This document shows, piece by piece, positions 1 to 53,624 of a stretch of DNA of 64,000 bases. Made by a program: the position numbers and the translations under genes. The stretch spans positions 131,603 to 195,602 of the forward strand of contig NZ_JAODIX010000019.1 of NCBI RefSeq assembly GCF_026586675.1, given 5' to 3'. The DNA is from Halorubrum yunnanense. Its GTDB lineage: Archaea; Halobacteriota; Halobacteria; Halobacteriales; Haloferacaceae. Numbering within the stretch: position 1 is the stretch's first letter; every line of letters starts with the position of its first letter. The notes under the pieces are model-generated. The model was not told the origin of the DNA. It saw nothing but the letters and a program-made list of their open reading frames with translations, and searched no databases.

Positions 1-380
1 GGAGGTGAGAGGTGCGGTCGCTGTGGGGGTGGGACTCAAACGGGCAGTCGCGAGGACGGCGGAGGCGACGCAAGCACTGGAAGGAGCGAACGCAGTGAGC
101 GACTGAAGCGCGCAGCGAGCGTGCGCCGTCCTCGCGGCTGGGGGTTTGGAGGTGTTTGCCGCTGAGTTCACGTGTCGCCGAGCAGCTGGGGGTTTGGAGG
201 TGTTTGCCGCTGAGTTCACGTGTCGCCGAGCAGCTGGGGGTTTGGAGGTGTTTGCCGCTGAGTTCACGTGTCGCCGAGCGGCTGGGGGTTTGGAGGTGTT
301 TGCCGCTGAGTTCACGTGTCGCCGAGCGGCTGGGGGTTTGGAGGTGTTTGCCGGCACGACTACGGATTCTGTTTATAAAT
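1..380 (-). repeat. Structured intergenic element, copy 1 (truncated by window start)
   Basis: This is the first of five related intergenic elements. It lies in reverse orientation, taking forward as the direction from the CAAAGCCCCAGCC-type box to the CTTTGAG-type box. Visible parts, from high to low coordinate, are TTTATAAAT at 372-380, a tandemly repeated box (137-353), stem I and the reverse complement of GTTTGAGTCCCACC near 30-43. Stem I pairs 49-61 with 124-136 over 13 perfect base pairs, and 45-48 with 137-140 extends it with one T-G pair. The rest of the element lies before position 1. No plausible protein is encoded; the frame open at 146-382 is only the translated repeat. Confidence 0.8.
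137..353. repeat. 48-bp tandem repeat, four units plus a partial fifth
   Basis: The core GCTGGGGGTTTGGAGG begins at 137, 185, 233, 281 and 329, an exact 48-bp period. The unit also contains GAGTTCACGTGTCGCC. The base before the core is A at the second and third units and G at the fourth and fifth, which suggests stepwise duplication. The array is the expanded outer module of element copy 1. The repeats are contiguous with no unique spacers, so it is not a CRISPR. Confidence 0.95.
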
Positions 381-19844: not shown

Positions 19845-20204
19845 TTTATAAACAGCCGCCGCTGCACCGGCGGTGAACGCTTCCAAAGCCCCAGCCGATT
19901 GTTTATAAATAACTGGTCGCGGATCGGCGGTGAACGCTTCCAAAGCCCCAGCCGGGAGGACTCGCGCGACTCGCTGCGCGCTTCAGTCGCTCACTTCGCT
20001 CGCTCCCTGCAGTGCTTACGTCGTCGTGCTTCGTCCCCCCGGCTGCCCCTTTGAGCCCCGCCCCGCGTAGCACCGCAACCGCACCTCAAACCTCCCCAGC
20101 CTCGTCGGTCGCCCTCCGCGTTGCTCCGGGCGACCGACTCCCTCGCGCGCGCTCCTCGGCCGCGATGCGGCCTCGGAGGCACGCGCCACCGCAGTTATTT
20201 AAAA
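19845..20204 (+). repeat. Structured intergenic element, copy 2
   Basis: A forward copy with two 57-bp outer modules (19845-19901 and 19902-19958). Each begins TTTATAAA and ends at CTTCCAAAGCCCCAGCCG. Stem I pairs 19949-19961 with 20033-20045 (12 of 13). The CTTTGAG box is at 20049-20055. Stem II pairs 20104-20114 with 20128-20138 (11 perfect), and stem III is 20158-20172 (GGCCGC/GCGGCC). The end is GTTATTTAAAA at 20194-20204. Nothing protein-like is encoded. It fills the gap between the S9 peptidase and the aldo/keto reductase. Confidence 0.88.
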
Positions 20205-20219
20205 GGGATTTCTCGGAGC

Positions 20220-33604: not shown

Positions 33605-33991
33605 TTTATTTATAAATAGACGGTGCGGTGGCGTGTGCCGTCGAGCGGCCGGTGGCCGCGAGACGCACGCGCGAGGGACGCGGTGAGCGCTCGGAGAGCG
33701 CGAACCGCGAGGCTGGGGAGGCGTGAGGTGCGGTCGCGGTGCGGGTGGGTGGGACTCAAAGGGGCAGTCGCGAGGACGAAGCACGGCGTAGTAAGCACCG
33801 CAGCGAGGGAGCGTCAGCGACTGAGCGAGGAGCGCGACAAGCCGCGCGAGTCCTCGCGGCTGGGGCTTTGGAGTGGTTCGCCGTCGATCCGGTCTCATCG
33901 GCGTATGAGCGAGCGGCTGGGGCTTTATGAGCGCTCACGGTTGGTACAACGGTATCCCCTTATTAGTGAGCGGCTGGAGGGCTGTGGGCGT
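33605..33991 (-). repeat. Structured intergenic element, copy 3 (reverse), left flank of thi4
   Basis: A reverse copy. TTTATAAAT is at 33609-33617 (the element's far end). Stem III is 33643-33657 and stem II 33681-33707. The reverse complement of the GAGTCCCACC box is near 33750-33760, and stem I pairs 33765-33777 with 33850-33862. Three outer modules with a 57-bp period start at 33858, 33915 and 33972; the third is degenerate. Their GGCTGGGG ends point toward thi4. A 47-nt stretch (33668-33714) is exactly the reverse complement of 35102-35148 in copy 4. Confidence 0.88.
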
Positions 33992-34981: not shown

Positions 34982-35015
34982 GAGGCCGACCGGGAGATCG
35001 TCGGGCCTCCGGTCG

Positions 35016-35215
35016 TTTATTTATAAATAGCTGAGAACGGATCGGCGGCGAACACCGCCAAAGCCCCAGCCGGCACAGCAACCGCAGCCTCACACCTCCA
35101 CAGCCTCGCGGTTCGCGCTCTCCGAGCGCTCACCGCGTCCCTCGCGCGGTACTGAGTCACGGCCGCCTTCGGCGGCCGCTCGCAGGCACGCGCCACCGCC
35201 TCGTTCGTTTATAAA
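35016..35215 (+). repeat. Structured intergenic element, copy 4 (short form), right flank of thi4
   Basis: A 200-bp forward copy lacking stem I and the CTTTGAG box. TTTATAAAT at 35020-35028 is followed by CCAAAGCCCCAGCC, then directly by the CCTCACACCTCC box, stem II (35109-35135), stem III (35160-35178: CGGCCGCC/GGCGGCCG) and GCACGCGCCACCGC, ending at TTTATAAA (35208-35215). Its CAAAGCCCCAGCC end faces thi4, as in copy 3 but inverted. The missing middle looks like an internal deletion. Confidence 0.85.
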
Positions 35216-53023: not shown

Positions 53024-53118
53024 ACGACGGGGAACGACTCTGAGCGATTGCCGGTGTGAGTATACTAGATCGGTCTGGGTGTTGTTTGTAAGCGGACGAG
53101 ATGTGTTGCTGTCGGTTG

Positions 53119-53459
53119 TTTATAAATGATTGACTCCGTGATGAACACTTCCAAAGCCCCAGCCGGCGAGGCGGGCGCACGCTCGCTGCGCTCCTCACTC
53201 GGTCGCTCACTTCGTTCGCTCCCTCGTTGCGGTGTCGCCGGCGGCGAAGCCGCCGGCTGCCCGTGGCGCTATGCGCCACGGTGCTTACGTCGCCTGCGCC
53301 CGCCTCGCCGGCTGCCCCTTTGAGTCCCACCCGACCGCACCGCACAGCCTCACGCCTCCCCAGCCTCGCCGCTCGCTGCGCTCGCGGCGTCCCTCGCACC
53401 GTCGGTTCGCGGCCTATCGGCCGCTCACCGGGGCGCGCCGCCGCACCGATCTTTATAAG
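53119..53459 (+). repeat. Structured intergenic element, copy 5
   Basis: A forward copy. TTTATAAAT is at 53119-53127, then ACTTCCAAAGCCCCAGCCG (53147-53165). Stem I pairs 53160-53179 with 53295-53314 over 20 perfect base pairs. Two further hairpins lie inside it (53236-53256 and 53261-53281). CCTTTGAGTCCCACC is near 53318-53332. Stem II is CGCCGC/GCGGCG (53367-53372 with 53384-53389) and stem III GCGGCC/GGCCGC (53409-53424). The end is TTTATAAG at 53452-53459. The whole lies in the gap between the duplicated-domain protein and purK. Confidence 0.9.
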
Positions 53460-53624
53460 CGCTCGCCGCTGTCGTTCACGGCTATTTAAATGCTGAATAA
53501 CCACCGACAAACTGCAACACCCAGTCCCGCTCTCGATCAAGAGTTCGTCTTCAGCAACTGACCGTGCCAAAATTTGGTATGTTTGAACAAGACGAGTTCA
53601 ACGAAGTCGCGTAGTCTATACACA

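Follow-up and report, generated by a model that had tools for sequence, protein, structure and literature searches.

The short palindromic repeats of prokaryotes are familiar mainly as DNA sequences. Bacterial repeats of the REP/ERIC type are intergenic, palindromic and present in many copies without coding capacity, and the BOX elements of Streptococcus pneumoniae are short modular intergenic repeats with a variable number of tandem modules and stable stem-loops. The closest described kind to the element considered here is the palindrome-associated transposable elements (PATEs) of haloarchaea (PMC3119063), an expressed PATE being known from HRTV-DL1 (PMC10544981); the SMR-A small mobile repeats of Haloquadratum, of ~110 bp, have inverted ends (PMC3119063).

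In the window (the whole stretch of 64 kb from Halorubrum yunnanense that was analysed), the hairpins previously designated stems II and III are modules of an interspersed non-coding element of ~330 nt. Five copies lie in the window (Table 1) and at least 113 in the genome as a whole; this count is a lower bound, based on 113 matches per covariance model with 150 candidates scored. The family was collected by blastn within the source assembly, a draft genome of 3.17 Mb, and modeled as a 5' domain comprising stems III and II (model R1) and a 3' domain comprising stem I and an inner rod (model R2), with E-values that are rough. We consider it fairly probable that these hairpins are part of a short, non-coding and non-autonomous mobile element in which one strand is preserved for its fold, be it as RNA or as single-stranded DNA.

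On the minus strand, a full copy begins with an A+T box (often TTTATAAA), followed by GCGGTGG, stem III, GAGGGA, stem II and CGAGGCTGGGGAGG; a variable linker leads to the second half, in which GGGTGGGACTCAAAGGGGC, stem I with the inner rod, and GGGGCTTTGGAGGTGTTC precede a set of tandem units. Conservation is lost ~8 nt past the last helix, which defines the end of the element. The tandem units at the 3' end number one to five per copy and are mostly 57 bp long (also 54, 51 and 48); they repeat the element end and often a TATTTATAA-like box, and are near-identical inside one locus and divergent across loci. Tandem arrays occupy the 3' end of the element at 138-345 of the window and at L012, L013, L027, L029, L034, L044 and L045. 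The unit lengths are all multiples of 3, and a convincing reading frame is absent: a coding frame through the units was rejected on finding stops in 6 of 52 units even in the best frame, and no coding-like open frame was found in the element. A similar terminal duplication, of element end plus flank, is present in Haloarcula rara and Haloglomus (L273, L220, L262), so that the duplication is not special to Halorubrum. Copy 2, the locus under study, sits between convergent genes that read as S9 peptidase-like and aldo/keto reductase-like, names given from the sequence.

Table 1. Copies of the element, and parts of copy 2, by position in the 64-kb window.
Feature	Position	Strand	Basis or detail
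Copy 1, cut by the window start	1..379	+	3' domain 32-152; 48-bp unit array from 138
Copy 2, whole	19845..20205	-	blastn family, models R1 and R2
Copy 2, two 57-bp tandem units at the 3' end, TTTATAAA box in each	19845..19954	-	
Copy 2, 3' domain (stem I, inner rod with tandem G-A pairs)	19937..20058	-	model R2, 138.1 bits
Copy 2, 5' domain (stems III, II)	20087..20192	-	model R1, 112.2 bits
Copy 2, stem II: 11 bp, GGA/GGA internal loop, 2-bp tip	20104..20138	-	fold, covariation
Copy 2, stem III: 8 + 3 bp, tandem G-A pairs, 6-bp tip helix	20145..20186	-	fold, covariation
Copy 2, A+T box adjoining the 5' domain (TTATTTAAAAG)	20195..20205	-	
Copy 3	33625..33960	+	5' domain 33625-33725, 3' domain 33752-33874 (models R1, R2)
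Copy 4, without 3' (stem-I) domain	35014..35215	-	5' domain 35091-35199
Copy 5	53113..53465	-	5' domain 53351-53444; 3' domain 53148-53327, nested insert at ~53234-53281

The original prediction held that stem II varies in sequence and not in place, and that a third hairpin follows it. The arms quoted for copy 2, GTCGGTCGCCC/GGGCGACCGAC, are indeed found at 20104-20138, as are CGGT..GCGCTC/GAGCGC..ACCG in copies 3 and 4 and CGCCGC/GCGGCG in copy 5, and the third hairpin, with its GGCC arms and 3-4 nt loop, was recovered in copies 2-5. Constancy of place with variability of sequence holds for stem II genome-wide, with two-sided changes in 10 of the 11 main-helix pairs and 92.7% of cells paired; the paired-column test over aligned copies was positive, and its signal disappeared when the partner was slid by 1-3 columns. 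Against dinucleotide shuffles, the stem stood out in copies 2, 3 and 4 (z of -3.1, -3.6 and -2.9; 0 of 200 shuffles as good in copy 2) but not in the short copy 5 (z of +0.07; 94 of 200 as good), where stem II taken alone is not beyond chance; copy 1 ends at the window start before stem II. Copy 5, no better here than its own shuffles, is what would be expected of chance palindromes in G+C-rich intergenic DNA, an explanation that is nonetheless extremely improbable, being contradicted by the genome-wide covariation, by the slid-partner controls and by an arm-swap test, in which 33 of 47 copies had the six outer pairs of stem II complete, as against 15% when arms from different copies were combined. 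Averaged over 47 gap-free copies, z is -2.68; it lies below -2 in 33 of them and above 0 in one. The draft assembly has N runs or single-base runs at stem II in L030, L031, L036, L046, L074, L075, L079 and L090, as expected for a strong hairpin that is hard to sequence.

Covariation extends over both domains. For the 5' domain (stems II and III), 95.8% of pair cells are paired in 42 copies and two-sided changes occur in 21 of 30 pairs, with a covariation of 0.373 against 0.120 when shuffled, and no slid control above 0.056. The 3' (stem-I) domain, taken from 89 sites in other haloarchaeal genera, is paired in 96.0% and shows two-sided changes in 32 of 37 pairs, with a covariation of 0.519 against 0.145 when shuffled. 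These alignments were model-fitted; MAFFT alignments made without the models show the same pairs. The fold, and not its letters, appears to be conserved by selection.

The two strands are not equivalent. On the minus strand, one-sided changes favor G-U over A-C by 44:9 in the 5' domain and by 112:21 in the 3' domain; given that the same changes would be A-C on the plus strand, the minus strand is the folding strand. It is the complement of the strand used in the original prediction, and carries both tandem G-A and G-U pairs. In stem III, each side of the inner loop shows G-A, without variation among the first 25 copies aligned, and the 3'-domain rod is ladder-like, 2-bp helices alternating with tandem G-A steps. 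From the sequence context, we infer that these G-A pairs would be of the sheared type. Both hallmarks of a structured RNA, compensatory changes in the stems and one favored strand, are present, and since G-U and G-T are both tolerated, RNA and single-stranded DNA are inseparable by sequence alone.

A fold of this kind raises the main rival to the mobile-element reading, a functional RNA found throughout the class, which we regard as possible and not as probable. The element would then be a structured non-coding RNA or a 3'-UTR module that serves a cellular function and was multiplied by duplication in Halorubrum; its minus-strand transcript might bind a putative protein via the G-A rods. The elaborate multi-domain fold, the strong covariation and the use of a single strand all favor it, as do the A+T boxes, which lie upstream at a fixed distance and could be promoters. 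A second such box (TTTAAA) occurs ~22-31 nt upstream of the TTTATAAA box in about one third to one half of the own-genome copies (upstream of the 5' domain in L023, L024, L032, L034, L068, L077, L088, L091 and L092), and could be a candidate promoter for the folded strand.

The distribution of the 3' (stem-I) domain bears on this rival in both directions. It was found in 162 of 194 Halobacteria and 57 of 65 genera, carriers including Haloarcula, Halorussus, Natrinema, Halobaculum, Natronococcus and Haladaptatus, and many genomes have 1-3 copies (up to >100 in others), a pattern favorable to a class-wide RNA. Against it, 32 of the 194 genomes have no 3' domain detected at the search sensitivity used, site occupancy varies, and the neighbors are not conserved. 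Outside Halobacteria the 3' domain was not found in a phylum sample of 196 genomes, all 28 positives belonging to the order of the source genome. The 5' domain was seen by eye beyond Halorubrum in Haloarcula rara and Halobaculum. Outside Halorubrum, the 3' domain often forms a head-to-head inverted pair, mostly with ~35 nt spacing, at ~10 loci at least; in such a pair, each strand has in its 3' half one module in the correct orientation. A distinct sub-form (GGCTTCGAAAGGGCGAGG...GAGGGCTTTCGGTGG), with a longer conserved stretch in front, is present at L149, L150, L195 and L197, and two Natrinema zhouii plasmids have a gene annotated as a DNA-binding protein a few hundred bases from it.

Our preferred reading, that of a mobile element, draws on the high copy number, the presence or absence of the element at given sites in different species, its defined end and the head-to-head inverted pairs, together with covariation above the shuffled and slid controls, the strand asymmetry, a bias to convergent gaps and the finding of the element in all 22 same-genus genomes searched. 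At the gap occupied by copy 2, the element is present in its own genome and in two others (G002, G006), degraded in G005 and absent in G014, G017, G011 and G008, genomes with other genes beside the marker gene being uninformative for this comparison; the gaps around thi4 show similar differences among species. The stems found at one site are not alike across species, a point against the mobile-element reading in that replacement by other copies (gene conversion) could produce such differences as well as independent insertion. In the own genome, 17 gaps with convergent genes contrast with 4 divergent ones (p 0.007), these counts being taken from acidic-residue composition and not from annotation; counts based on GC3 were conflicting, as antisense frames confuse them.

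Several observations count against the mobile-element reading. Exact ends and a target duplication were not resolved in the compared gaps, and the own-genome copies are old, the closest match to copy 2 being 86% identical, so that recent movement is not seen. Other genera do not show the bias to convergent gaps (4 convergent versus 10 divergent). Nor was an autonomous partner found: four gaps that were read between divergent copies 0.3-0.9 kb apart, where an autonomous version might lie, hold short frames only and no transposase by eye. Among the proteins at ~100 class-wide sites there was no recurrent neighbor gene, with clusters never above 4. Separately, viral carriage was considered and rejected, there being no matching phage record and 5 pattern matches in IMG/VR of which none was confirmed by the model.

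If the element is mobile, a protein supplied in trans would recognize the folded single strand, whether a transcript or single-stranded DNA; recognition near the conserved ...CTTTNNAGGTGTT end would allow the element to spread, and selection against insertion upstream of genes would leave the convergent-gap bias of the own genome. The family may alternatively represent an undescribed class-wide haloarchaeal RNA with a dedicated protein binding its G-A rods, which would act via RNA (for example as the substrate of its own mobilization) and not as a DNA end, a suggestion that we put forward with some reserve. In the window, Rfam 15 gave zero matches at the gathering score, and relaxed limits added only a sub-threshold match to a CRISPR repeat; no published description of the element was found in a literature search of open-access papers. 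From the comparative evidence, an elaborate one-strand fold has been kept across an entire archaeal class, at 1 to >100 copies per genome. Its conservation points to a putative protein that reads the fold, and the family is large enough for comparison or pull-down; an action of such repeats as RNA can now be tested directly against one as single-stranded DNA.

The element is itself host to a smaller one. A two-hairpin repeat of ~48 nt (e.g., AGCGAGGGACCTCCGGTCCCTCTGGCAGCCGGCGCGTAGCGCCGGCGA), the stems of which vary too, is nested inside it at 53234-53281 of the window and at L013, L025, L027, L028, L035, L043, L060, L065, L072, L082, L092 and L096. It recurs at the same sites, beside stem II or within the stem II loop (L025), and looks like a second mobile palindromic repeat targeting the larger element.

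Such insertions invite an explanation by PATEs, in which the element would be a degenerate IS605/IS1341-type element mobilized by TnpA, with the module serving as its near-terminal palindrome or as a TnpB guide RNA. Haloarchaea are rich in PATEs, nested repeats enter PATE palindromes (PMC3119063) much as the two-hairpin inserts enter the stems here, and an expressed PATE has been reported in a Halorubrum virus (PMC10544981). We judge this explanation improbable, however: the models R1 and R2 placed the element near tnpB at only 2 of 20 own-genome tnpB loci, at none of which it forms the locus's own end, and the inverted ends of the head-to-head form have no counterpart in PATEs. A TnpB guide RNA or IS1341 end was also rejected directly, as the module is absent downstream of the tnpB frames read at the clear loci of the own genome.

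REP/ERIC-type repeats are shorter than, or built otherwise from, the element described here, and tandem G-A rods are to our knowledge not a feature of them. The BOX elements, from an unrelated host, share a modular build with a tandemly repeated module (here 1-5 units at the 3' end), an analogy for which no homology is claimed. The likeness to SMR-A concerns the nested inserts only: in both cases small repeats enter palindromes of a larger element, although the inserts are ~48 bp with two hairpins and SMR-A ~110 bp. With PATEs, the element shares its non-coding, multi-copy and haloarchaeal nature, palindromes that are near-terminal (the last helix is ~8 nt from the loss of conservation) and a susceptibility to smaller nested repeats. 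We do not file it as a PATE because two defining features were not found on testing: its palindromes do not resemble those of an IS605-type transposon, judged by the 20 own tnpB loci, and terminal inverted repeats do occur in head-to-head forms outside Halorubrum, as at L274, where the outer ends form an inverted repeat of ~21 nt. In MITEs, inverted ends are related to those of a known transposon and often come with a target duplication; here, inverted ends were observed only in the paired head-to-head form. The element differs from PATEs in that no link to IS605/IS1341 ends was found, and in its covarying stems, which two papers on PATEs (PMC3119063, PMC10544981) do not describe and which here extend over most of the length.
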